Origin: Lepisosteus oculatus
Lineage: Eukaryota > Chordata > Actinopteri > Semionotiformes > Lepisosteidae
Assembly (NCBI RefSeq): GCF_040954835.1
Contig: NC_090707.1
Location: forward strand, 17,812,570-17,876,569
Reading direction: 5' to 3'
DNA: 64,000 nt
Part shown: positions 6,651 through 61,083 of the stretch, in pieces
Position numbering within the stretch: the first letter of the stretch is position 1
How the letters are laid out: each line of letters opens with the position of its first letter
Made by a program: the position numbers and the translations under genes
Notes under the pieces: generated by a model
What the model was told of the DNA's origin: nothing
The model's database searches: none
Seen by the model: only the letters and a program-made list of their open reading frames with translations

Positions 6651-6731
6651 ACGTCTAGACTACCTGGAAATGAAAAAATATGTCCCACTACTACTGTATT
6701 AATGCGCAAAATGTTATATAACCAAACATAC

Positions 6732-7508
6732 CTGATAGGCATCAGGGATATTAACAGTCTCCCCATGTTCAGCAACATATCCAATTATACCCTTTCCCCA
6801 CGGCACTTGTACTTCATTTGAGTTCTCCATACTTGAAGAAGGTAACACTGTGGTTCCCGCATGAACATCAAAGAATTTGGACACAAGAGTCTTCTTGTTA
6901 GCGGTGCCTTCGACTAAAAACAAGGAGCAGCGGTCTGCATCTACCATGATGCAGACATAAACGAGAATCTTGTAGCAGAGGTTAGTTAGATCCAAGTCGT
7001 TTGAAATGTCTTTAACCAATTCAAGAAAGAACTCCCTTTCGTTATGCTGCTTAAGGTAGTACTTGTAGTCAATAGCCGTTGAAGGGTATTGGGGTATGTT
7101 AACTCGGGATTCCAGAAGAGCGCTCAAAATGTGAGCGGTAGTTGGTGGCAGGGAGCTGGCTTTTCTCAAGAGAGCTCTCCGTCTCATGCTTGTTAGGGGT
7201 TCCTGCGCTCTAGAGTTTACATGTTCATCATATGTCCTGTTGGCATTAATAGCCTTGGATCTTGCAAAACTTTTCCTCAGCTCCTTCTGCGACGCACGTC
7301 TGTGCAAGCCATCACCAGCCTTGTTCACCCAACAGTCTTTACTGCTACTAGTTTTATCACCATCTGGGCTCGGATTCCCTGGAGATTTATTCACCTGGTG
7401 ATTTTTGAGCCATTTTTCCACCATGCTTGGTTTCCCTTTCCTATTCAGGTAATCTTCAAATAACTCTGGATGTTTGTCCAGAAAACTTTCTACCTCCGAA
7501 AAGTCCAT
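6732..7508 (-). CDS. pde11a: pde11a coding exon 1 (N-terminus and GAF-A)
   Basis: N-terminal 259 residues of phosphodiesterase 11A, which hydrolyses cAMP and cGMP in the cytosol. The start is the ATG at 7508 (MDFSEVESFLDKHPELFEDY); the longer open frame to 7526 begins at TTG and is not a true start. Residues 70-73 (RRAS) and 115-118 (RKAS) match the two known PKA/PKG phosphorylation sites of human PDE11A4 (Ser117 and Ser162) with the same 45-residue spacing. The GAF-A domain begins near residue 166 (VKDISNDLDLTNL) and continues past the exon end (NIPDAYQ). The donor CAG|GTATG lies at 6731-6730 and the exon ends in phase 0. The segment between the N-terminal helix and the RRAS site is about 44 residues shorter than in human PDE11A4, lacking its Gly/Ser-rich stretch. 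A possible acceptor (gtcag) sits one base before the ATG. Confidence 0.96.
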
Positions 7509-7860
7509 ACTGACGATGTAAGGCAAGCCACACTATTAAGTTAATGAACATTTAAAAAAAAAACAAAAGCCGTTTTTTTAATGCGAAAAAGAAAGTTGTG
7601 CATAGAAAAGCACGATTTGGAGTCACTTTAAACAATCAGCGTACGATCGCATATAATCCTATCCAATGCAAACTATATAGTATTGAAAAGTAATAACATT
7701 CTGAATAGTACAATAAAATATTTCGGAAAGACGGTTCTCTCTCGCTACTTACTAACTCGATTCTGAAACATGTTCTTTGGTGTACAAGGGAGCGAAAATC
7801 CAGTGCTATCCTCTAACTTGAAACGCTTGTAGCGCTGATGCTGCGTAGCTCAGTAGGACC
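7509..7860 (-). promoter_or_regulatory. pde11a: Candidate non-coding 5' exon and promoter side of pde11a
   Basis: On the minus strand a consensus donor GTAAGT begins at 7752, and an AG lies at 7511-7510 directly before the ATG, preceded by a T-rich run near 7545-7575. This would fit a small non-coding first exon above 7753 spliced to the coding exon. No clear TATA box was found. A first exon that simply extends upstream without splicing is equally possible. Confidence 0.3.
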
Positions 7861-12189: not shown

Positions 12190-12670
12190 TTATAATAATA
12201 ATTGCTTACACTTATATAACACTTTTCTGGACACTCCACTCAAAGCGCTTTACAGGTAATGGGGATCCCCTCTACCACCACCAATGTGCAACCCCACCTG
12301 GATGATGCGACAGTAGCCATAGTGCACCAGAACACTCAGAGTAATGAAGCCAATTCTTAGATGGGGATTATTAGGAGTCCATGATTGGTAAGGGCCAATG
12401 GGAAATTTGGCCCAGACGCCAGGGTTACACCCCTACTCTTTTCGAGAAACGCCCTGTCTCATCCTAAGGACAGCCCCTGTTTACAGTATAGTGTCCCCGT
12501 CACTATACTGGGGCATTAGGACCCACGTGGGCCGCATGGTGAGCGCCCCCTTCCAGCAGCAACCTTAGTTTTTCACAGGAGGTCTCCCATCCAGGAACTG
12601 GCCAGCCACACACCTGCTTAGCTTCACTGGGCTGCCAGTTGTGAGCTGCAGGGTGATATGGCTGCTGGCC
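12190..12670 (-). repeat. 5S rRNA-derived SINE (SINE3 type), near full length
   Basis: The minus strand starts at about 12670 with a clear 5S rRNA-like head. GGCCATATCACCCTG is followed by the A-box-like GAAGCTAAGCAGG (12613-12625) and the C-box-like TGGATGGGAGACC (12581-12593), in the order and approximate spacing of 5S rRNA. A body of about 390 bp follows and ends in the 'cactttatataagtg' and ATT-rich tail near 12190. The 5S internal promoter is the hallmark of SINE3-class elements, transcribed by RNA polymerase III. The copy is mutated but its layout is complete. Partial relatives lie at 4632-4860 and 29485-29740. Confidence 0.85.
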
Positions 12671-17894: not shown

Positions 17895-18286
17895 GGATGC
17901 ATTTAATATAATTTAAAAAATATTCATGGTACAAAGAACTAACATTTCCTAATTTAGAATTTTAAAATGCTGTTATAGATTCGGCAATAACAATGATAAT
18001 GGAAAAGGAGAACATGCAAATAAAACCATCGTCTTAGATCTATTTCAGAGGGGCTATAAAACCTTAACACACATGTCCCTTTTCAAGAGCTAAACATTCT
18101 TATTTCATGCAAAAATCAATCTTAAGAAGCCGCTACTCCATGAGATATAATAATAATACATTGAAAATATTCAACAGATATAACCACAAAGACCCCCAAA
18201 TGCATGACGTGTGTTAATGAGCAAAACTCAAAGTTGCGAAATGTTATTTTGGACGACCATAGGGTTGCCATTCCAAAATATCTATG
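17895..18286 (+). repeat. Repeat unit A (392 bp, inverted copy at 19127-19518)
   Basis: Matches the reverse complement of 19127-19518 almost base for base by eye, from ggatgcattt to aatatctatg. Both ends are sharp. Nothing in it resembles a known transposon. It is the leftmost part of the A-B-C-A'-B-C' structure. Confidence 0.9.
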
Positions 18287-18407
18287 TATTGGCTTCTCTG
18301 TCCAGGATTTGTTAATTAGCAAGGCCAAATGTCTATTTTTAAGATTATGGATTCATAATGAGATATGCAGGTTTGAACTGCGGAAAACGAGACAACTGTA
18401 GATTGGC

Positions 18408-18911
18408 ATTATGCAATAGAAAAGTACATGGTCGAGTAGAATAATGAACATGAATGTGTTTCATGTTTGTCAATAAGCAAATAACACACATAAGCCTTTG
18501 AAGTCAGCCATTAAACAGTGGGTAAATGGGTAGTCTGGCTGGAGAAGAAAAGTTCTTTTATATATAGATAAAAAAAATCAGTTTATCTGTAAAATAAATT
18601 ACTGTAATGCAATATTGGTTAAGACCAATGTCTCTGCTCTCTATGTAGAAAACTGCTCCCAGGTATGTGATTAAGTTTGCTGAAGGTCACTTGATGGTTA
18701 AGCTACTCATTCCTGTATTTTTTCTAAGACACAGGATTATAATGGTAAGGAAGGTGATTGCCTTTTTTTCTTTTTTATTGACATCAGCATACCAGAAAAT
18801 TGCTGTCTTCACTTGATTAATAGAAGAAATACTGTATGATTCATTGAGCAAAAACATGTACAGGCAATTGTGTCCCAGAACACAACCCAGGGATGAGAAG
18901 AGATTCATGAT
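18408..18911 (+). repeat. Repeat unit B, copy 1 (504 bp direct repeat)
   Basis: Identical by eye to 19530-20033 at a constant offset of 1122 bp. The 73-codon open frame on its minus strand exists in both copies only because of the duplication and has no recognisable homology. Confidence 0.92.
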
Positions 18912-18917
18912 AAATGC

Positions 18918-19121
18918 AGGTGATTTTGCAGTTTATTGTTTAACAATTCACCAGTTTTTAATGTAGGTCACATGGATAAATGGGTAAGTTAAAGAATTAA
19001 AAGTAAGAAAAAAAACACCAACACACAAGCCAGAGGAAAAAAAAGACTTGACACAGGTGTGCAAATTATAATGAGCTCTTTACTAACTCTTGCCTATAGC
19101 AAAATGCATCAGATAGAAGTC
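18918..19121 (+). repeat. Repeat unit C (204 bp, inverted copy at 20166-20369)
   Basis: Reverse complement of 20166-20369, from aggtgatttt to agaagtc. Six novel bases (18912-18917) separate it from B copy 1. Confidence 0.9.
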
Positions 19122-19129
19122 TGATGCAT
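19104..19129. repeat. Perfect hairpin at the C/A' junction
   Basis: ATGCATCAGA at 19104-19113 and TCTGATGCAT at 19120-19129 form a 10-bp stem around a 6-nt loop, exactly across the junction between C and A'. The bases tgatg at 19122-19126 belong to neither repeat and complete the right arm. Confidence 0.9.
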
Positions 19130-19518
19130 AGATATTTTGGAATGGCAACCCTATGGTCGTCCAAAATAACATTTCGCAACTTTGAGTTTTGCTCATTAAC
19201 ACACGTCATGCATTTGGGGGTCTTTGTGGTTATATCTGTTGAATATTTTCAATGTATTATTATTATATCTCATGGAGTAGCGGCTTCTTAAGATTGATTT
19301 TTGCATGAAATAAGAATGTTTAGCTCTTGAAAAGGGACATGTGTGTTAAGGTTTTATAGCCCCTCTGAAATAGATCTAAGACGATGGTTTTATTTGCATG
19401 TTCTCCTTTTCCATTATCATTGTTATTGCCGAATCTATAACAGCATTTTAAAATTCTAAATTAGGAAATGTTAGTTCTTTGTACCATGAATATTTTTTAA
19501 ATTATATTAAATGCATCC
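19127..19518 (-). repeat. Repeat unit A' (inverted copy of A)
   Basis: Reverse complement of 17895-18286. It is followed by 11 bases not in either unit, containing a 7-bp tandem gaattat repeat at the junction with B copy 2. Confidence 0.9.
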
Positions 19519-19529
19519 AAGAATTATGA

Positions 19530-20033
19530 ATTATGCAATAGAAAAGTACATGGTCGAGTAGAATAATGAACATGAATGTGTTTCATGTTTGTCAATAAGC
19601 AAATAACACACATAAGCCTTTGAAGTCAGCCATTAAACAGTGGGTAAATGGGTAGTCTGGCTGGAGAAGAAAAGTTCTTTTATATATAGATAAAAAAAAT
19701 CAGTTTATCTGTAAAATAAATTACTGTAATGCAATATTGGTTAAGACCAATGTCTCTGCTCTCTATGTAGAAAACTGCTCCCAGGTATGTGATTAAGTTT
19801 GCTGAAGGTCACTTGATGGTTAAGCTACTCATTCCTGTATTTTTTCTAAGACACAGGATTATAATGGTAAGGAAGGTGATTGCCTTTTTTTCTTTTTTAT
19901 TGACATCAGCATACCAGAAAATTGCTGTCTTCACTTGATTAATAGAAGAAATACTGTATGATTCATTGAGCAAAAACATGTACAGGCAATTGTGTCCCAG
20001 AACACAACCCAGGGATGAGAAGAGATTCATGAT
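19530..20033 (+). repeat. Repeat unit B, copy 2 (504 bp direct repeat)
   Basis: Second copy of 18408-18911. It is followed by 132 bp of single-copy sequence (20034-20165) before C'. Confidence 0.92.
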
Positions 20034-20165
20034 GACACTGCAACTTTGCCATGGCCTAGATAAGGTTTATATGTACAGTATGTTACACTCCAAATTGGGA
20101 AATGCATCTCATGGGATTCCTTGATACAATGAGCTGCTGGCAGATTTTCTGATCTTTTGTGCCAG

Positions 20166-20369
20166 GACTTCTATCTGATGCATTTTGCTATAGGCAAGAG
20201 TTAGTAAAGAGCTCATTATAATTTGCACACCTGTGTCAAGTCTTTTTTTTCCTCTGGCTTGTGTGTTGGTGTTTTTTTTCTTACTTTTAATTCTTTAACT
20301 TACCCATTTATCCATGTGACCTACATTAAAAACTGGTGAATTGTTAAACAATAAACTGCAAAATCACCT
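20166..20369 (-). repeat. Repeat unit C' (inverted copy of C)
   Basis: Reverse complement of 18918-19121. Rightmost part of the rearranged block. Confidence 0.9.
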
Positions 20370-20748
20370 TCTGCAGAATGATACAAAAATCAGTTAATAA
20401 TTTCACATAATAGCTACTACATCCCGTTTTACGGTTGCTGTACATTTTTATTTGGCTGACACTAACATCCAAAGCAACTTTACATTTTTACCTGTTCATA
20501 TAGCTGGACATTTCCCTGGAACAATTTAGGTGAAGTACTTCATCTAGGGGTACCATAGCAGTATCTCAATTAGGATATGAAATCACAACCTTTCACTTAC
20601 AAAGTTGGTCCTGATTTGGTCAGAGTTCTGACCATTGCTCCAAACTGCTGACCTTACAGAGCAACCCCTGGACACCCTATCGTCTCAGCATGCAACTGTC
20701 CCACAACTCACATCTCTGCCTTTTTCGACAGCCTTATGAGACCGCTGG

Positions 20749-21270
20749 TTGAAGGGCTTCCTTCATATATCAAGGACACCAACCATACCCTCTAACTTTT
20801 TAATGATTTCCAGTTTCAGGGCCCAGAATGTTACATTTTTACCATGGACATCACATCTTGTACGTCTTGCGGAATTGGTCCTCACACTGAATGCTTTCTC
20901 ATTCAATAACCTTTTTTATGAGCAGGTTAGTGGAGTCGCCATGGGCACCAGGATGGGACTCAGCTATGATATTTTTGTCGGCTGGGTAGAAAAATGCTTC
21001 TATGCTGCCTACACCAATGTTGTCCCCAACGTCTACATTGATGACTGCATCGGTGTCGCCACATGCTCTAATGACCAGCTAGAGCATTTCCAGCATCACT
21101 TCATCAACTTCCACCCATCCCTCAAGTATACAGTTAACATATCTTCTTCTATTCCATTTCTAGACATAAACCTATCCATTAACCAACCACGACTCTACTT
21201 CTGTCTATTACAAACCCACAGATTCACACAGCTATCTCTTGTACAGCTCATTTCACCCCACACAAACTAA
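20749..21270 (+). pseudogene. Penelope-like RT fragment
   Basis: Open stretch holding the RT core: GVAMGTRMG, then the Tyr-Ile-Asp-Asp catalytic box, then PFLDI. It is an arbitrary open piece of a broken gene; its Met is not a real start, and homology begins upstream near 20640 in another frame. Confidence 0.75.
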
Positions 21271-21317
21271 AAATTCTCTCCCTTTTTCACAGTTCCTAAG
21301 GCTCTGACGACTTTGCA

Positions 21318-21893
21318 GTGATGACATGGATTTCCAAAAACATCTTTTTTTCCATCAGCAGAGGATACACCCATGTTATTGACAGGGCCCTCACCTTAGC
21401 CATAAACAGCCCTCATATCATCAACTCAATCAGGAATTTCCAGTCTCACAACTGCATTTCATTGGTGCTTCCCTGTCACCCTAACATCCTTTCTATCACC
21501 AGGACCATTAACAAAAACTTCCCCATCTTACCGGATGATCCCTCCACTGGTACCATTTTTTATGCCTGCCCCACCATCTCATATTTCAAACCACCTAATC
21601 TGCCTAACATTTTTGTTCACAGCTCCCTTGTCCGCCCTCAGCAATCATCCACACCAGGCACTTTCCCCTGCAACAGAATTCGCTGCATAACCTGTAAATA
21701 CGTATACTGTATATCCAATACCACACACATTCAAGGCCCCTCTGGACAATTCTGGATCACCCAGATGACATATTGTACCTCTAGCAGCCTTATCTACTGG
21801 ATCTCTTGCAGAAAATGCCCAGCTACTGTATCTACATTGGGGAAACAGGAAGGAGACTGGGAGACCGCTTCAGGTAATATGTCAGGGCTGTGA
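21318..21893 (+). pseudogene. Penelope-like C-terminal fragment with GIY-YIG remnant
   Basis: Carries the RT thumb/linker region (RTINKNFPILPDDPS), the Cys-rich block RCITCKYV and the start of the GIY-YIG domain (LIYWISCRKCP). A frameshift near 21825-21833 moves the rest of the nuclease motif into another frame. A typical C-terminal block, HFTSNGHDHTDLSVCVLKG, reads near 21925-21985. Confidence 0.75.
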
Positions 21894-22230: not shown

Positions 22231-22870
22231 TGATTGTAGTCCCTCCCCCTTAAGGGTGCTCCAGCTCTTTCACTTCTGGGTTGATTGTGGGAACCTGCCC
22301 CCTGTTCCAGCCTCCTATTCAGCCCACCTTAAAAGCCAGTCGCTCACTCTGTTCCGGGCTCTGCATTGGTTCCTGTTCCAGGGGAGTCCGGGACTTGTAG
22401 TGCCTGGTCCCGTTCCCCCCCTTTTCCCCCTGACCGTCCACCGAATCCCCCGAATCCCCCTTCGGTTTTTAATCCCATTTGTCTTAGTCTCGGATGGACC
22501 ACCCGGCTCTGGACATTTGCCTCATCTTGGATTTCCCTTTGGACTCCCTTTTGGACAGTTTGCCTTGGATTCACCCCCCAGAACACCTGCGCACCATGGA
22601 CACACCCCCTGTTTTCAATCCTGACCCCTGCATGCTTTTTTCCCTGTGTTTTCCTCACTCTTCCTCAGATTGTGTCATCTGCATAGGGTCCTGAAAGGAC
22701 GCATTCATTACAGTTGTGTTTTTTTTCTTCTCTTTTCAGCATAAACCTTTACTTTTTCCCTTACAGAGCAATGCTCTTCATCTGATAACTGCATTTTTGT
22801 GGATTGGTTTCTATTTTATTTTCAATTTTTTGTGTTTATTCAGCAAGTATTCAACAAATATGTCCATCTG
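22231..22870 (+). other. C-rich unclassified insert between two retroelements
   Basis: Between the Penelope end and the LINE start lies a C/T-rich, proline-codon-rich stretch followed by T-rich DNA. Overlapping open frames on both strands reflect composition. It may be part of a third repeat, but no family was recognised. Confidence 0.45.
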
Positions 22871-22873
22871 CAG

Positions 22874-25588
22874 GAACTTATTCCGGACTCGAACGTTACC
22901 ATCGGCGGCTTTCAGACGGTGCGGGCGGACAGAAACACCGAGAGCGGTAAGAGGAAAGGAGGGGGGCTCGCGGTGCTTGTAAACAACAGATGGTGTAATC
23001 CTGGACATATTCATGTTAAGGAGCGCGTCTGTAACCCGGACATCGAACTGGTAGCCGTAGGACTGCGTCCATACTATCTGCTGCGGGAGTTTACATGCGC
23101 CATCTTTGTTGTTGTTTACATTCCACCTACGGCAAATGCAGAGGTAGCGTGTGACGTCATAAACACAGTCACAGGCAGGCTACAAACAAAGCACCCAAGC
23201 GCTTTTATAGCTATTTCAGGGGACTTTAACCACGTATCTATTTCCACCACTCTGCCTACTTTCCACCAGTTTGTTAAGTGCCCGACCAGGGAAAACAAAA
23301 CACTGGACTTATTATATGCCAATGCTAAGGATGCATATAGTTCCACAGCCCTTCCCCCCCTTGGCAGATCAGATCACAACCTTGTCTTGCTTACACCACT
23401 ATACAAGCCTATTGTCCAGCGCCAATCTGTGACCATGAGGACTGTGAGGAGATGGTCTCAGGATGCTATGGAGGATCTACGTGGTGCTTTGGAGGCCACC
23501 AACTGGGATGTGCTGTTCGAACCACATGGGGACGACATAGACAGCATGGTGGACTGTGTCACTGACTATATTAACTTCTGCGTAGACAACACCATCCCCA
23601 CCAAAGACGTACACTGCTTTTCAAATAACAAACCCTGGATCACCAGCGACCTGAAGGCTCTTCTGAATGACAAGAAGAGAGCCTTTAGGGGGGGAGATAA
23701 GGAAGAGGTCAAGCGTGTACAGAGGGAGCTAAAGCAGAAGTTAAGAGAGAGCAAGGACGCCTACAGGAGGAAGGTAGAGGACAAGCTGCAAAGGAATAGG
23801 GTGAGAGATGTATGGAGCAGCATGAGAGAGATCACTGGCTTCAAACAGGCTGGGGTTGCAACAGAAGGGAACCTGGAGATGGCCAACGAGTTGAACCAGT
23901 TCTTTAACAGGTTTGATTCTGGGTCCTCTGTGGCGCAACACCCATCCCCCCACAGCCACACGCTCCCTAACCCTTCACAGCTGCAACTGCCCAACACCTC
24001 CTCCATCCCCCCACAAACATGGCCGCCTACAGCTACAAGCCCCGACGGCTGCTCACCCACCCATCCCCCACAGCTGCCACTCTCCAACACCTCCGCCATT
24101 AACACCTCCAGCACTGAAAGCACTATGAGCATCATCCCCCGGGCCAGGCTGACCATCACAGCTGACCAGGTGAAGAAGGAGCTGAAGAGGCTGCACGAGG
24201 GTAAGGCCACAGGACCAGATAACATCTGTCCCAGAGTTCTGAGGGCCTGTGCTGATCAGCTGAGCGGAGTGCTCCAGCGACTGTTCAACCTGAGCCTGCG
24301 CTTGGAGAGAGTCCCGGTGCTCTGGAAGACATCATGCCTGGTCCCGGTACCAAAGAAAGGGCGCCCCTCTGCCCTCAACGACTACAGACCAGTTGCACTG
24401 ACTTCTCACATCATGAAGACACTGGAGAGGCTGGTCTTATCCCACCTGAGACCCCTGGTCAGCTCATCACTGGACACCCTACAGTTTGCCTACCAGCCCA
24501 GTGTTGGTGTGGAGGATGCGATCATCTACATGCTGCAAAGGGCCTACTCACACCTGGACAGGGCTGGCAACACTGTAAGGATCATGTTTTTCGACTTCTC
24601 CAGTGCCTTCAATACCATCCAGCCCTTACTTCTAAGGAGGAAGCTGGAGGAGATGCAAGTCGATGCCTCCATGACCTCGTGGATCACTGACTACCTGACG
24701 GGCAGACCACAGTCTGTGAGACTTCAGAACTGTGTGTCTGAACTGGTAGTGAGTAACACAGGGGCACCTCAAGGGACAGTTCTTTCTCCATTCCTCTTCA
24801 CCCTCTATACTTCGGACTTTAAGTACAACTCAGAGTCATGCCACCTGCAAAAGTTCTCAGATGACTCTGCAATTGTGGGATGTATCAAGGGTGAGCAGGA
24901 GGAGGAGTACAGAGGACTGGTCAGCAGCTTTGTGGAGTGGTGTGGGGTGAACCACTTGGAACTGAATGTTACAAAGACAAAGGAACTGGTGGTAGATTTC
25001 AGGAGGAAAAAGGTCAAACCTACTCCTGTCTACATCCATGGGAGTGGCGTGGAGATGGTGGACTCGTACAAGTACCTGGGAGTGCACATCGACGATAGAC
25101 TGGAATGGTCTAAGAACATCGAGGCCATCTATAAGAACGGACAGAGCCGACTTTACTTCTTGAGGAGGCTCAGGTCCTTCAATGTGTGTAGTAAGATGCT
25201 ACACATGTTTTATCAGTCGGTGGTAGCGAGTGCCATTTTCTACGCAGTGGTGTGCTGGGGCTCTGGGATTAGAGCAGTAGATTCCAAAAGGCTGAACAAG
25301 CTCATCAGGAGAGCAAGCTCTGTCATTGGGTCTGACCTGGACCCCTTGGAGGTAGTGGCTGAGAGGAGAATGATGTCCAAACTAGAGGCCATCATGGACA
25401 ACTTCTCCCATCCCCTCTATGACAGGCTTGCAGGAATGAAGAGCACGTTCAGCAATAGTCTGATTCATCCACGGTGCGACAGGGAGCGCTACAGGAAGTC
25501 ATTCTTGCCGTCTGCCATAAGACTGTACAACGCATCCACCTTGCGTCTTGGCAGAGGCAACAGCGACAGTGACCTGTTTCTGGACTAA
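22874..25588 (+). CDS. LINE ORF2: partial AP endonuclease plus reverse transcriptase
   Basis: An uninterrupted frame runs to the TAA at 25586. Numbering from the first Met of the open frame (22799), LINE homology starts near residue 26; the preceding residues come from unrelated flanking DNA. Endonuclease blocks present are YIPP (107-110), GDFNH (141-145) and SDHN (191-194); the N-terminal catalytic Asn/Glu blocks are missing. Reverse-transcriptase blocks are DYRPVALTS (528-536), FDFSSAFNT (598-606) with its first Asp, GAPQGTVLSP (655-664) and FSDDSAIVG (686-694) with both catalytic Asp. The C-terminal YKYLGVHIDD and KSFLPSAIRLYN are typical of the abundant fish family. The long intact frame suggests a young insertion, but without a full endonuclease it cannot be autonomous. 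Confidence 0.88.
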   Translation, partial: ELIPDSNVTIGGFQTVRADRNTESGKRKGGGLAVLVNNRWCNPGHIHVKERVCNPDIELVAVGLRPYYLLREFTCAIFVVVYIPPTANAEVACDVINTVTGRLQTKHPSAFIAISGDFNHVSISTTLPTFHQFVKCPTRENKTLDLLYANAKDAYSSTALPPLGRSDHNLVLLTPLYKPIVQRQSVTMRTVRRWSQDAMEDLRGALEATNWDVLFEPHGDDIDSMVDCVTDYINFCVDNTIPTKDVHCFSNNKPWITSDLKALLNDKKRAFRGGDKEEVKRVQRELKQKLRESKDAYRRKVEDKLQRNRVRDVWSSMREITGFKQAGVATEGNLEMANELNQFFNRFDSGSSVAQHPSPHSHTLPNPSQLQLPNTSSIPPQTWPPTATSPDGCSPTHPPQLPLSNTSAINTSSTESTMSIIPRARLTITADQVKKELKRLHEGKATGPDNICPRVLRACADQLSGVLQRLFNLSLRLERVPVLWKTSCLVPVPKKGRPSALNDYRPVALTSHIMKTLERLVLSHLRPLVSSSLDTLQFAYQPSVGVEDAIIYMLQRAYSHLDRAGNTVRIMFFDFSSAFNTIQPLLLRRKLEEMQVDASMTSWITDYLTGRPQSVRLQNCVSELVVSNTGAPQGTVLSPFLFTLYTSDFKYNSESCHLQKFSDDSAIVGCIKGEQEEEYRGLVSSFVEWCGVNHLELNVTKTKELVVDFRRKKVKPTPVYIHGSGVEMVDSYKYLGVHIDDRLEWSKNIEAIYKNGQSRLYFLRRLRSFNVCSKMLHMFYQSVVASAIFYAVVCWGSGIRAVDSKRLNKLIRRASSVIGSDLDPLEVVAERRMMSKLEAIMDNFSHPLYDRLAGMKSTFSNSLIHPRCDRERYRKSFLPSAIRLYNASTLRLGRGNSDSDLFLD

Positions 25589-25918: not shown

Positions 25919-26006
<88 letters not shown>
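25917..26006 (+). repeat. TATC tetranucleotide microsatellite (LINE tail)
   Basis: About 22 uninterrupted TATC units directly after the LINE 3' end. It most likely expanded from the LINE's own 3' tetranucleotide tail. Confidence 0.97.
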
Positions 26007-26404: not shown

Positions 26405-26690
26405 GGGATGAGTGCTGTCGATTCATGGCAACCCTATGGACAGTTACCCCATCACTATCCACAGAGTTTTCATGGCAAGAGACAGATGTAGATTGCCAGG
26501 CCTTTCTTCCACATGGATAGTGCTAGTGTTGTTGCCTTTGTCATGGAAACATAATCCTCCACCGCCAACACCGCCCCATACTGCTGCCCAGTATGGGTTA
26601 ATAAAGAACCTTGTACCCGACGTAGGACACAAACCCACTACCCTGAGATTATGAGTCTCATGCTCTACCAACAGAGCTAGTCGGGGCTAT
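26405..26690 (-). repeat. SINE with tRNA-Lys-like head
   Basis: The right end on the minus strand is a tRNA-like sequence (26614-26687). The body reads through 'gttctttattaacccatact' and a 'catggcaaccctatggacag' block. A tRNA-Lys head suggests a tRNA-derived SINE rather than a gene. Confidence 0.6.
26614..26687 (-). pseudogene. tRNA-Lys-like pseudogene with CAT anticodon
   Basis: The D arm (TAGCTC...GAGC) and the anticodon stem (TGAGA/TCTCA) are those of tRNA-Lys(CTT), but the anticodon loop reads CTCATAA. The T loop is altered (TTTGTGT for TTCGAGC) and the acceptor stem is off by one base. A degraded B box argues against a working tRNA gene. Confidence 0.7.
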
Positions 26691-26934: not shown

Positions 26935-27182
26935 GTATATACAATTTCTTGATTTAGGAATGTGTCTTTTCGCATACCCCAGCTTGCTCTGAGAGACACA
27001 CAGACAGGGAGAGAAGCTTGGGGTCAGAGCGCAGGGTCAGCCATTTATACGTTGCCCCTGGAGCAGTTGGGGATCAGGGCCTTGCTCAGGAGCCCACCAG
27101 AGTAGGATTCCTCTGCCGGCAGCAGGATACGAACCAGCAACCTTCCAGCCACAGGCGCAGATCCTTAGCCACAGAGCCTTGT
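26935..27182 (-). repeat. tRNA-derived SINE (gcttggggtcagag type), full
   Basis: The minus strand starts with A-box-like TGGCTAAGGATCTG and B-box-like GGTTCGTATCC, then a body with 'cctgagcaaggccctgatcc' and 'gaccccaagcttctctccct', and ends 'ccaataaagtgatc'. Related copies at 48205-48395 (minus, head missing) and 60893-61083 (plus). Confidence 0.8.
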
Positions 27183-27719: not shown

Positions 27720-27894
27720 TAGAATTTCCGTGGCATTAAAAGAGGAGGTGCTGCGCTCTTGTGGCTGTAAAGGGTTAGCGGCGGCGTGAGGTCTGATTTT
27801 TTTTGTTATCCGAGTGATTCTAGGTTTTGGTCTGACAAACGGCAAACCGTAAGAGTGCACATTTCCAAACCAGCCGCGGCCTAAGGTTAAGAAG
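27720..27894 (+). promoter_or_regulatory. rbm45: rbm45 promoter / 5' UTR region
   Basis: Short GC-enriched stretch (gcggcggcgtgagg, cagccgcggcc) directly before the ATG with no TATA box, consistent with a CpG-type housekeeping promoter. The exact transcription start cannot be seen. Confidence 0.45.
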
Positions 27895-28170
27895 ATGGAA
27901 GATTATAGTTTTAGGCCGTCCGTTGACAGTCTCGACGACCCTCCAAACAGCCGCTTGTTTTTAGTGACGAGCAAATCCACTTCTGAAGAGGTGATCCGTG
28001 AGCACTTTTCGGTTTTCGGAGAAATTCAAGATATCTGGGTGGTGAAAGACAAGCAAACAAAAGAGTCAAAAGGGGTATCCTTCGTTAAGTTCGCCAAATC
28101 GTCGCAAGCATGTCGGGCTATGGAAGAAATGCACGGGAAATGTCTTGCAGAAGGAACCAAACCCATTAAG
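27895..28170 (+). CDS. rbm45: rbm45 exon 1 (RRM1)
   Basis: 92 codons, [20 protein letters not shown] to GTKPIK, phase 0. The donor is AAG|GTTTGT. It contains RRM1 up to its last strand. The N-terminus is about five residues shorter than in human, lacking the Gly/Ser stretch. Confidence 0.96.
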
Positions 28171-31100
28171 GTTTGTATATATCAAGTTCCTGGCGTTTTG
28201 CATTTGCTGTCTTGTTGTTCAGCACACGTAGCGTCGTTGACAAAATGCGGATGGAATTTCGAGGAATCATGGCGAATGTGACGCTTGCTCTTTCGCCAAA
28301 CCGTCGAATTGGTTTTATTTATAGTGTATTTCGTATCCCACTAACTTGTATACGTAAACAGTGAAATGCGTGAAGCTAAACTCATAGGCGCTTCGTTAAG
28401 CTGCGCTCGCGTTTTCTGGGCCTCGCTCCTCATTTTGCATATAGCCGGAGTTATTGTATATCGTTCAAATACCACTCAAGGCTATCTCTTAGCAAAGTAA
28501 GATGAAAGGTTCGTGTAACTGCACCTTTAAACGATTTTATGTCTGCAATTCATTTTGCGTCCTAATCCATTTTCAGAATGGATATTGTGTTTCCCTGATT
28601 TCCTGAAATTTGCATGCACTTCTTGCCACTTATGCCTGTTGACGTTTGAGGTTTTCTTTTTAGCTGAGGGGCTGTTATTTGAATTTTAATTTGAAATGTG
28701 GCATCCCTTTACATGTCGAAAATGTATTATTTGAACCTACGTTCTTCTGAATCGGTTCTTCTGAACGTATCCCGAAGAAAAGATGTCTTTGTAAATGCAG
28801 CCGAACTGGATTACAGCCGTGCTTTGCTCCTTCGCCATCAAAACGTCCAAAATACTGTAACTGTAGTTCTTGCAGATTTATTTTCTCGCACGCGTTGAGC
28901 ACAAGTTCCTCAGATAGCACATAATTTATAGCTTTCCTAGGTGTTGTAAAAATGATTAAAAAAATGACGGTATTTATAAAAGCTCAATTGAATCTAGATG
29001 TAAATATTATACGTATATATAGATTTAAATATGCATTAATATCTTTGTATAGGTGGGGTAGGTTAGTCCCAAACTGATAGTGAAGTTTTTTTTAATCGGA
29101 TTTAGGGATTTTAAGACGCACACACGCGGTTGTTTTAATTTTGTCCTACTTGATGTGAAGTGACCAGCCAGACTGCTCTGGTATGATGTCACCTGATGGA
29201 CCAATGACTGGTGTTTGTTATAGAAAGGCCAGGGTGGGAGATGTATGTTATTTTTCCCCGAACAGATAACCATCTCATGTGTGGAAGGACATGTAACAAT
29301 AGCATTTCAAAATGTTTTCACCAAAAGCTAAACAAATGGGCTTGCATGCTTGGGGTTCTACTGTAAGGTAGCATGCATTAATTTCATTTTTAGTTCTAAG
29401 GTATTTTTTTAAATGTAAAAACAAAGAAACAACATTGTCCTGCCTGGCTATTGATTTATATAATACCATTTTTAATAGTGTTTTTCTTAACAATCCTCTC
29501 AAAGTGCTTTACAGGTAATGGGGACTCCCCTCCATCACCACCATTGTGTAGCCCCTGGATGATGTGACGGCAGCCATAGTGCGCCAGTACGCTCACCACA
29601 CATCTGCTATCAGTGGGGTGGAGAACAGAGTAGGAAGGAGAAGCCAATTCATAGATGGGATCATTAGGAGGCCATGATTGATAAAGGCAGGGGGAACTTT
29701 GGCCAGTACACTGGATTTAACAGCCCTACACCCCTTGTTGAATGTGTTTGTGTGCAAATGAAAGAAAAGTAAATGGGATCATAACTCAACCATTATGTTG
29801 TAGCCTGTTTGGCAAATACCACAGCGTGTTTTATTCATGTTGGTAACCGTTTTACGTTACGTAAAGCGGTAACATGTTCCAGATATTGTTCATTGTGGTT
29901 TAATGGAAAACCCTTGTTTCAGCTACATGATCTGTAATGGCTGTAAAGTCATTGAAGAATGTTAACGTGTATTCAACATAATTTTCAAACCGGTGTCTGT
30001 AAGTTACTCCTGTGTCCCCTGTTTTAGACTGTCATCTCATCCAGGGTGTACACTTGTCTTGAGCAAGGTGCCGGCTGGGTTAGGCCCTTCCTTAGGATGA
30101 GGCAGTTATGGATAATGGCTGCACTGAAAATGGATTTTAACTGTAAAGCGCATTAGCATACAATGCCATTATGTTTAGGGCATTTTTTAGGGTTTAGGGA
30201 TGCTGCATTCAGACCATTGAGATTTCCTCCGGCATCATTATTTGGAAGAATCTCCAGCCACCACCCGTAGGAAGGAAAAGGATTTTTAATATTTTGAAGC
30301 ATTGTGTGAATGTGGATGAACATCTGTGTTCAATTAACATAAGGCTGTACCAGTCAGATGTGGTTATGATGGCGTTACTGTGTCATATTGGGCAGCAATA
30401 TAAAACAATGTACTTATTTACTCATCGGTGTTCTTTTTATGGCTGTATCACAGCTGTGGCATACACCTTTGCACTGCTTGTAGCACAGATTCATTTACAG
30501 AGGGTGCCAGCAAACACCTGATTTTCTTTAGGTATTGGGGGGGAAAAAAGTGTTGATTCCACAAGTCAATCCTCTGTTCCAAATCATCCTTTCCACGGTA
30601 TCCTACTAAGTGCTTTGGAAGAAGAAAATGATGGAGCCCTGGCTTCAACTCCAGCCCTTGCGGTAAATGGTAAAATGTGACCTTCAAGCTCCGGATCACA
30701 GTGCAGCATGAAAGTTTGAGCCTTTGAAGTGCTCATTTACATCATTTTTTTATATTGCCACTCGAGCTGCTTTTTTTTCTTTAAATTTAGATTGAAAATG
30801 GTTTCTCCGGAAGTTCATTCATGCGTTTTAAATGCTATATTGAGCATTTAAATGCATGTGTTTTTTCCCCAACAACTGAATTTGAGAATACAAGAGATTT
30901 GACATTTCACACCATTTGAGTTTAGAAAAAAAGAGCATTCTAAATATCAGTTATTTAATTTTTTTATGTATGTCACTTTTGCACGGTGTTTCTGTGTAAG
31001 ATGCTTTTCTTTATAAGGGACTGAGAAGCTCTGTTTAGTTCCTGCTGTGGGTAATAGCTATACTGTAAAAAGGAAGTGACTTTCTTTGGAATACAGCCTT

Positions 31101-34100: not shown

Positions 34101-37100
34101 CATTTGACTGTCAGTTGTGTGCCATCCTCTGTGAATTAAAGATTTGCTAGCACTTCTGACCTCAAACAACTTGTTCTCCAAGGCTCTGTTGATTGTGGCT
34201 GTTGACTGGTACAAGTTTGAAGGACAGGAAAAACAATGTCGTGTTTTGTTTCCACAGTCACTTGTGGGATACACCTGTGACAGGACAGCAGTCCATCGCA
34301 GGGTACAGATAGATACAAATGGACGCATGTATCGGAGCCAATTTTACAGAAATCACTTAACCTACCAGTATGTCTTTGGGCTGAGGAGGAAGCTGGGGCA
34401 TCTGGAGAAAACCCATGGAACATAGAAACTCCACACATAGTACCTTGGGATTTGAACCCAAGGCCCCAGGACTGTGTGACAGCATTACTTACCACTGTGC
34501 AACCATACTGCCTGTTTGTCAGTTTAATTTTTTAAAAAGCCTTTCCTGAGTTTTACACTAGATGTTTTAAGGTTTCCTCATTATAGGGTTTATCGTAGAC
34601 TGCTGATGGCTTTACGTGACTCTTCTGTTTGCAGGTGTTCATTGCTCAGTCCAGGTCCTCAGGAAGCCATCGGGATGTAGAGGATGAGGAGCTGACAAGA
34701 ATTTTTGTCATGATTCCCAAAACATTTACAGAAGATGATCTCAAAGAAACATTCAAGGTAACTAACTATTTATTCAATTAGAAGATAGCTGTAGATCTCT
34801 CAAAGAGCTGTGTTTTATTTACTGTTACAAAGTGTGTTGCTTTCTGTGTGGAATTGGTGAAATAGAGGCACATTTAAGTACATCATGGATTTACTTTTTG
34901 CACTACATCCTTCTACATTGTCACCCTCTGAGACTTGACTAAACAGAGATCGAATCGGCATTTTCAAGATAAACCCTTTGATTTCTTGCTGTTATGAAAA
35001 GCGTTCTCCTTTGTTATTTTGTCATTTGTTTTTGCACACTCCTGAGTGAATCTTTGTTTTCTAGGAATATGGTGACATAGAATATTGCGTTATTATAAAA
35101 AACAAAACTACTGGAGAGAGCAAAGGCTTGGCTTATGTGAGATATCTCAAACCTTCCCAAGCAGCAACAGCTATTGAAAACTGCGACAAAAGTAAGCAAT
35201 ACTTACTCCTACTCTGTAATATCTGTGCAAACAAAAGTGTAATTGGTTAAATGTTTCATACGAAAAACAATTGAGTTGTTTTTGCCCATTTGCTAGTTAA
35301 TTTATGCATGGCTAAAATGTTATGTCCTAAATGAGTCTATTAACACTCCACTTTTGATGGCAGTATTAAAGAGTGGATCTTCTAACACAAGCTCCTTTGT
35401 TTTCAGCCTTCAGAGCTATTCTTGCTGAACCCAGGAACAAAAATGTGACCACTGAAAATGACTATTTTAGCAATGTCAGAACCGACCACGTGACCAGCGA
35501 TCCAGGAATGAATGCATATCAGTTTGGTAGGTTGCTGCAGAATGTGGTGGACGTGCTTGAAATAAGTGAAGTATACATAGTCACTCTGAATATACAAAAA
35601 TACTGGTAGAGATTACAGAATATAGTGTTTTTGTAGGTTGTTATAGTTCATTAAATACAAGGACATTTTCTAGATGTCAATGTTATAAAACTGTTCTTGG
35701 TATAGCCATATATTTAAGTTAATGATGCATTGTATCAAGAAATAAGAAACTGACAACCCTTTTTTTTCCAGTAGTTTAGCGTAGCTTTAAAACACCATTT
35801 AAATTGTATCTTGTAACATTACTTTTTTGCTTAGTATTTCACAAATATATTTTATGACTTCCCTAGTAATTAGGTCTGATAATGACTTTAATAGTTGTGA
35901 TAGATACATTTATGATAGTAATATAATTGTCAGTAATGTGCAGTGTGCTTCTGGAAAGAAACTTATCAACTCAATTTTGAAGTCTACAGAATATTGTATA
36001 ACTTTTGTTGAACATGATGAAAATCAGTTTTGTATTTCTTTTAAGCATGTGTAAAAGCTTAATTTTAGAAACCCTTCCTCTTGCAAAGGTTGTGGTCACA
36101 GAATTAAGATTTGTTTCTTTTTCACCCGATGAAGCTGAGGCCGTAAATTACGGAATGGGAGAAATGCGAAGCACGGATATTATAACTCGGTGCTTGTTGG
36201 TGTCGTCAAGAGCAAGTATAACGCAGGAGCAAGTTTACAGTCTCTTTGATCTGATTCCTGGGATGGACTATTGTGAGATGCAGAGGGATCCTTATGGATT
36301 TAACAAAGGTATTATAACAAATAAAAGGAAGTGTGTTAAAAATTAATCCTGGCTCCAATTTGAAGCACCTGATAACTTGCCATGTATAGTTCTGAATGTG
36401 GGTTGACCAAGCAGATTCACTAACTGCAGTTCACAAATTGACAAAAACTGCAAGTCCCTGAGCTTACCCCTTCTACACTCCAAAGCTATCCGCACTTGTC
36501 CCTTCTACGTTGGACCAATCTTAGTACAAGCTGACCGCAATGTGGCTCCATACAGAAGTAATGATGGTTTTCTAAACCTAAAAATGCATTCATGGGATAC
36601 AACATGTGTAGTTGGACCTAAAAGCAAAACTCTTTTCTTCAAATCTAAAATAACCCCTAATTTGCTTTCATGGCCAAAACTCTTATGTTCTGCCAAAAAG
36701 TAGGCTGGAAAGCTCTTCAGCCATCACCCATTTTCAGGTCTGCTAAATGGTTCTGAGTGGAAAATGGTTACTTCACTTTCCATAATGGTATAACTATTTC
36801 AATAGCCATGCAAAGAGGCATTTTATAGAGTTTACTACTTTGTCTTGGAAATATAATTCCAAAGATATTTTGGCATAATTTGTTGTCCCATGAATTTTTT
36901 TATAAATGTTTAAAGTTTTCAGTTTAACATTAATTTTATTTTCCCTAGGTCAAGCTATGGTCCGGTACAATAACCTAGGCTCGGCTGTATATGCTAAGGA
37001 GAAGCTGAATGGCTTTGAGTACCCTCCTGGAAACCGTCTGGCTGTTGTCTACGTAGATGATGGTGACGACAGGTCCAGGTAAGGCAAAACATTTAGGTTT

Positions 37101-47579: not shown

Positions 47580-47790
47580 AACGTGTAAGTAAAGGTGAAT
47601 TCCACATCGAAATGTAGAAAGAAGAAACTACATTTTGGCTATTGAGCCTTCTTCAGGTGTGAAAATGCTCAACAGCTGAAATGTTGCATTTCTACTTAAT
47701 ACTTTTTGGAATGGTGGAATTAACCATGACCTTATTCCTTTGCAGCCTATACACTCAGATGCAGCCCCCACCCACTCAAAACTAGATAAT
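47580..47790 (-). mobile_element. Penelope-like terminal fragment
   Basis: On the minus strand CTGAAGA (47656-47650) is followed by a GGCT/AGCC stem and AAAATG, matching the end of the element at 22196. Flanking text is partly mirrored (aattccac and aaatg blocks on both sides), suggesting joined terminal repeats. No coding part remains. Confidence 0.6.
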
Positions 47791-48204: not shown

Positions 48205-48395
48205 ACGAGATCACTTTATTAGCCATATACAATTTCTTGCATACCCCAGCTTGCTCTCCATGAGACACACAGATAGGGAGAGAAGCTTGGGGTCAGAGTG
48301 CAGGGTCAGTCATTTATCAAGTGCCCCTGCAGTAGCTGGGGTTAAGGGCCATGCTCAGGGGCCCATTGGAGTAGGATTCCTCTGCCGGCTGCTAA
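48205..48395 (-). repeat. tRNA-derived SINE, head missing
   Basis: Matches 26935-27125 from the aataaagtgatc tail to 'ggattcctctgccggc', then stops before the tRNA-like head. Confidence 0.8.
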
Positions 48396-55744: not shown

Positions 55745-55885
55745 ATGTAATACATTTAATACAGGTGGGTGGCTGCGTCTGCATGCATAGGCTGCAAAGG
55801 GACAAGTAATAGGTTTATTCCATGCTGAAAAGAGAAGAAAGAAAACAACGTTTTGGCCATGGGGCCTTCTTCAGGTGAAGATATC
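55745..55885 (-). mobile_element. Penelope-like terminal fragment with hammerhead-like core
   Basis: The minus strand reads CTGAAGA (55874-55868), a perfect GGCC/GGCC stem with loop CCAT, then AAAACGTTGTT, followed by 'ttctttcttctcttttcagc' and 'ggaataaacctattacttgt'-like text. Same family as 22196-22229 and 47650. Confidence 0.65.
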
Positions 55886-60892: not shown

Positions 60893-61083
60893 GGGCTAAG
60901 GATCTGCACCTGTGGCTGGAAGGTTGCTCAAATCCCGCAGTCGGCAGAGGAATCCTACTCTGTTGGGCCCCTGAGCAAGGCCCTTAACCCCAACTGCTCC
61001 AGGGGTGCTGTACAATGGCTGACCCTGCACTCTGACCCCAAGCTTCTCTCTCCCTGTCTGTGTGTCTGTGTCTCATGGAGAGC
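60893..61083 (+). repeat. tRNA-derived SINE
   Basis: Plus-strand copy of the 26935-27182 family: gctaaggatctgcacctgtg, a mutated B box (gctcaaatccc), cctgagcaaggcccttaacc, gaccccaagcttctctctcc. Confidence 0.8.

Follow-up and report, generated by a model that had tools for sequence, protein, structure and literature searches.

Background

Inverted triplications flanked by duplications (DUP-TRP/INV-DUP) are known from human disease loci, where they have been ascribed to two template switches (PMC4352052; PMC9851044), and an alternative origin, by rearrangement of an earlier inverted triplication, is put forward in PMC10766186. Their junctions have been described as carrying templated insertions and extra switches, and in one PLP1 case the triplication spans only about 254 bp (both PMC4352052); most of the examples presented in PMC10766186 are without known repeats at their junctions. 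Small inverted triplications (SIT) are described with segments of about 150 bp, as measured in yeast, and have also been called in cancer genomes (PMC13334657). At yeast breaks, fold-back templated insertions have been reported, most of them about 5-34 bp long in the account given in PMC11724301. Among the matches listed from a literature search oriented towards evolution and fish, the sole paper on "inverted triplication" was a test of the ODIRA model (PMC4689423), and the string 1-2-1-2-1-2-1 occurred in none of the papers that matched at least two of three query terms.

In this study, we describe a block of scrambled repeats in a 64,000-nucleotide stretch of the Lepisosteus oculatus genome (hereafter the window), which has the layout of an inverted triplication whose inverted copy lacks its middle.

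Methods

Segment coordinates were defined by maximal exact extension, starting at the coordinates given in a first-pass annotation made from the sequence. Templates for the junction bases were sought widely, in the block plus 1 kb per side, with 1,000 random inserts for each junction, and locally, as fold-back or slippage copies, with 5,000 random inserts each (six tests overall).

Results

The scrambled block is non-coding and lies in the gap between two genes, which are represented in the window by the following exons:

6714-7532, minus strand: exon with a GAF domain (Pfam); best solved-structure matches are cGMP-specific phosphodiesterases
27853-28281, plus strand: exon whose best matches are RNA-binding protein 45 (RBM45)

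We take the product of the former to be PDE11A-like at its N-terminus and the latter to be the first coding exon of RBM45; PDE11A and RBM45 adjoin in vertebrates. A further stretch at 36002-36343 (plus strand), which has no Pfam match, presumably resembles a later RBM45 exon. To the right of the block, interrupted reading frames occupy 20740-21893 (plus strand); we assume them to resemble a Penelope-like reverse transcriptase, and Pfam returned no match for them at E 0.001 and none that was informative at E 10. A LINE-like frame at 22745-25588 (plus strand) is open for 947 codons and matches RVT_1 and ALKBH8_N, with no endonuclease match in Pfam. Elsewhere in the window we observed a dispersed repeat family (26993-27123, 48262-48392 and 60913-61005; 83-86% alike, in both orientations), a perfect (TATC)22 microsatellite (25919-26006), and a 67-nt direct repeat (47593-47659 and 55811-55877; 72% alike, with the final 14 bases in common) that may represent a retroelement family. 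A tRNA-Met-like gene at 26613-26686 (minus strand) could be genuine or a SINE head, and a 5S rRNA-like sequence at 12551-12669 (minus strand), which scored 39.9 against an Rfam threshold of 38 bits, might be a pseudogene or else a SINE derived from 5S.

On the plus strand, the block reads A, u1, B, 6 nt, inverted C, 5 nt, inverted A, 11 nt, B, u2 and C, so that the copy number over A, u1, B, u2 and C is 2-1-2-1-2. Its parts, those of A, B and C delimited by exact extension and those of u1 and u2 by BLASTN and the segment model, are:

17895..18286, plus strand: A, left flank copy, assumed to be in the ancestral position (392 bp)
18287..18407, plus strand: u1, one copy within the window (121 bp)
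18408..18911, plus strand: B, left copy (504 bp)
18912..18917, no strand: junction J1, 6 novel bases without a significant template
18918..19121, minus strand: C, inverted copy (204 bp)
19122..19126, no strand: junction J2, 5 novel bases within a 10-base reverse-complement (fold-back) match
19127..19518, minus strand: A, inverted copy (392 bp)
19519..19529, no strand: junction J3, 11 novel bases without a significant template
19530..20033, plus strand: B, right copy (504 bp)
20034..20165, plus strand: u2, one copy within the window (132 bp)
20166..20369, plus strand: C, right flank copy, assumed to be in the ancestral position (204 bp)

Over these full lengths, the two copies of A are exact reverse complements of each other, as are the two copies of C, and the two copies of B form an exact direct repeat. 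There were no mismatches in the 1,100 aligned pairs of the A, B and C copies, which places the 95% upper bound of their divergence at 0.27%. The repeat coordinates of the first-pass annotation thus proved right to the base, the near-identity it had noted is complete identity, and the sharp ends with 5-11 bp of novel bases that it had described correspond to 6 bases at J1, 5 at J2 and 11 at J3. A repeat finder concurred with the extension, giving B as a 300-base reference copy and the A arm as 395 instead of 392.

Within the window these repeats stand alone. Six pairs of inverted repeats of at least 24 nt lie no more than 3 kb apart, two of which are the A and C pairs; since the other four are short (24-29 nt), with 76-81% complementarity, the scrambled repeats lie far beyond chance. 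No other near-identical repeats of at least 60 nt were found in the window at any distance, the remaining repeats of that length comprising two direct families and two inverted pairs that are 72-86% alike and more than 8 kb apart. When A, u1, B, u2 and C, together with 1 kb of each flank, were compared with the window by BLASTN, no further copies were detected at E 0.01; B is present twice in total, and an inverted copy of B is absent from the window. A 31-base piece of B had no exact match in viral_contigs, a collection in which animal sequence would be unexpected.

The inserts at J1 and J3 had no significant template in the block plus 1 kb per side (chance 0.265 and 0.357, respectively), and local slippage or fold-back did not account for them significantly either (0.23-0.84). 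At J2, the five extra bases together with the flank make up 10 nt that are the reverse complement of the adjacent end of inverted C, at most 30 bp from the junction; this fold-back match was equalled by 5 of 5,000 random inserts of the same length (0.001, as one of the six tests). The direct-copy test for J2 gave 0.047, and the wide template search (block plus 1 kb per side) gave 0.087. In addition, a 51-nt stretch at J2 is predicted to form a strong hairpin (z = -4.95), with none of 200 shuffles equally stable. Judged from these matches, the J2 insert resembles a fold-back copy taken from adjacent sequence during joining. When delimited by exact extension, no junction is a simple microhomology join; every one of them carries extra bases, so that end joining at J1-J3 may also have taken place.

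By parsimony, the ancestor would be a single 1,353-bp block in the order A-u1-B-u2-C, which is the order that the first-pass annotation had suggested and which fits the exact segment map. Compared with this modelled ancestor, the locus has gained 1,122 bp of non-coding DNA, and the derived order would be that of a DUP-TRP/INV-DUP-type inverted triplication whose inverted copy lacks a 757-bp middle (u2-B-u1), again in line with the deletion first proposed. All six ancestral breakpoints fall within 1,353 bp, which fits local switching. If rates between 4e-9 and 1e-9 per year are assumed, the 0/1,100 differences give an upper bound on age of about 0.3-1.4 million years; zero divergence is also consistent with a copy created by misassembly.

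When the nine adjacencies of the block were treated as a graph, five complete paths were obtained, all with the same junctions and copy numbers, and the printed order is one of them. The five differ only in how identical copies are threaded, and the printed order therefore rests on reads that span the copies. Since some of the orders share the neighbours of B, such reads need to cross every one of A, B and C, or else the entire block; short of this, what the locus displays is a small complex variant compatible with five orders.

Discussion

The structure is real in the sequence and probably real in the animal. We read it as a recent, local complex variant that most likely arose by replication-repair template switching of the FoSTeS/MMBIR kind, an interpretation drawn from the sequence to which we would give an even chance. 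Synthesis would have copied A-u1-B and then jumped to the other strand, landing at the right end of C (J1); C would have been copied backwards, the 757 bp of u2-B-u1 skipped, with a short fold-back copy made at the skip, and A copied backwards (J2); finally, synthesis would have gone back to the strand on which it began, at the left end of B (J3), and resumed B-u2-C. Locally copied segments and strand switches, as expected for FoSTeS/MMBIR, are present, with a significant fold-back template at J2 only. The single episode and the enzymes behind it belong to this interpretation, as does the ancestral state. No sign of function was found in the sequence, and none is needed as an explanation; likewise, no observation made in the window hints that the neighbouring genes might be affected.

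The principal alternative is a history in two steps, in which an inverted triplication (A u1 B / C- u2- B- u1- A- / B u2 C) first arose with J1 and J3, and its hairpin-prone middle (u2- B- u1-, 757 bp) was later removed by breakage and end joining that left the fold-back insert at J2; we regard this as possible, though clearly the less probable course. Restoring the 757 bp to the inverted copy yields the DUP-TRP/INV-DUP layout described in PMC4352052, and the full triplication would contain hypothetical stems of 1,017 and 840 bp, with B- common to both. Small inverted triplications borne on plasmids are reported as unstable in E. coli and yeast, in a hairpin-dependent manner, and in E. coli they were stabilised by loss of sbcC, sbcD or rep (PMC13334657); for human cases, "palindrome erosion" has been proposed (PMC10766186). 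However, the loss described in section 2.6 of PMC13334657 restores the original locus and leaves no such remnant, and two rare events would be required in a time short enough for 0/1,100 differences. A simple model of random deletions inside the inverted copy removed all of B in 19% of placements, and in 43% when the length was fixed at 757 bp, so that the removal of B as a whole does not strongly favour one history over the other. We prefer one episode because all copies are identical and the junction inserts are alike in size (5, 6 and 11), a preference that the evidence does not decide. Recent template-switching repair, as the first-pass annotation had it, fits the locus, and one event is one option for it, since a two-step history also fits. 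A more far-reaching version, which we put forward as a doubtful suggestion, is that a small inverted triplication has been eroding in the germ line of a vertebrate and that the locus could be its fossil; the hairpin-forming middle would have been lost with fold-back repair, and 2-1-2-1-2 would be a recognisable end product of erosion. Such a fossil might be fixed or segregating. The two-step history predicts an allele with the full inverted triplication, which, if the structure is real, could be searched for in relatives and populations.

Other explanations concern the assembly or the nature of the repeats. The junctions may be real and the printed order wrong, the locus having one of the four other arrangements, e.g. 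A-C-B(inverted)-A-u1-B-u2-C; identical copies of 204-504 bp could be mis-threaded, as the five enumerated traversals illustrate, and PMC12616954 describes a comparable ambiguity in human linked duplications. We consider this unlikely, as the 64-kb window holds no N, which suggests, without proving, long reads; the order is fixed by reads that cover the three copies and reach into unique sequence at either end. Still somewhat less probable, in our judgement, is an artefact in which the assembly took up a chimeric molecule of the library, or else a path that was heterozygous or misjoined. Amplified DNA is known to yield inverted chimeras of sequences that lie near each other, divergence is zero over 1,100 bp and there is a single source of sequence; against this, three junctions with distinct novel bases should occur in sequenced molecules, and coverage should presumably outvote a single chimeric read. 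Merged haplotypes, which had been named as the main alternative, fare poorly, since co-linear merging alone leaves the 6, 5 and 11 novel bases unexplained; the risk of a wrong order, or of a chimera in the library, is better defined. A mobile or satellite element, with B as long terminal direct repeats and inverted arms inside, is very improbable and was set aside as a main reading. Two long direct repeats do flank a 618-bp insert, superficially like terminal repeats, and the frames that we take to be retroelement-like start 0.4 kb to the right, with no informative Pfam match; however, the inverted parts derive from the flanks outside B, on both sides. Moreover, open stretches in the modelled block reach 85 codons at most, no stop-to-stop ORF of at least 90 codons overlaps 17895-20369, and no Rfam family was found in the block at the gathering threshold (the two matches in the window lie elsewhere); together, the lack of other copies in the window by BLASTN and of a long open stretch argues against a transposon or a gene.

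If real, a variant made by template switching would leave at this locus a natural record, compact and easily read, in which several strand switches are preserved inside 1.35 kb. As in DUP-TRP/INV-DUP at the PLP1 and MECP2 loci, sequence of both outer flanks lies inverted, with a direct copy of the central segment on either side (inverted C and A between the two copies of B, if the assembled order is right), and there are two strand-switch junctions of the polarity seen at J1 and J3; extra junction bases are also described in some human cases (PMC4352052). In that class the central segment occurs three times, the middle copy inverted, with only two novel junctions, whereas here the inverted copy is without its middle, B has two copies and the junctions number three (J1-J3). 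The scale differs as well, the duplicated segments surveyed in PMC10766186 measuring anything between a few kb and thousands of kb, against a block of 1.35 kb here. A pair of inverted repeats at one junction is a frequent but not universal trait of DUP-TRP/INV-DUP; at or above a floor of 24 nt, no further inverted repeat was found at the locus.

Small inverted triplications, as described in PMC13334657, resemble the locus in their scale of hundreds of bp and in their DUP/inverted/DUP layout, but their junctions lie at reverse-complementary sequences of about 6 bp with median spacers of about 30 bp. Here, inserts of 6, 5 and 11 bp are present at the joins instead, as delimited by exact extension, and the equivalents of the spacers measure 336 and 513 bp, or 342 and 524 bp when the inserts are counted, with an internal loss in addition. 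Local n-jumps and templated-insertion cycles are generally of larger scale, and short-range template switch events are small mutation clusters of tens of bases, whereas the segments of this locus measure 204-504 bp and meet at three junctions. The former two, which are described in somatic cancer genomes, share with it several junctions per region, copy gains and inversions (PMC7025897), and the latter, which belong to germ-line evolution, likewise copy the reverse complement of a template close by (PMC7954356). The fold-back templated insertions of PMC11724301 resemble J2 in having a short reverse-complement copy beside the join, but would explain J2 alone. Taken together, these comparisons indicate that the kind of rearrangement is already known and that its scale has precedent, and that the combination differs from the named classes by an extra junction and a missing middle.
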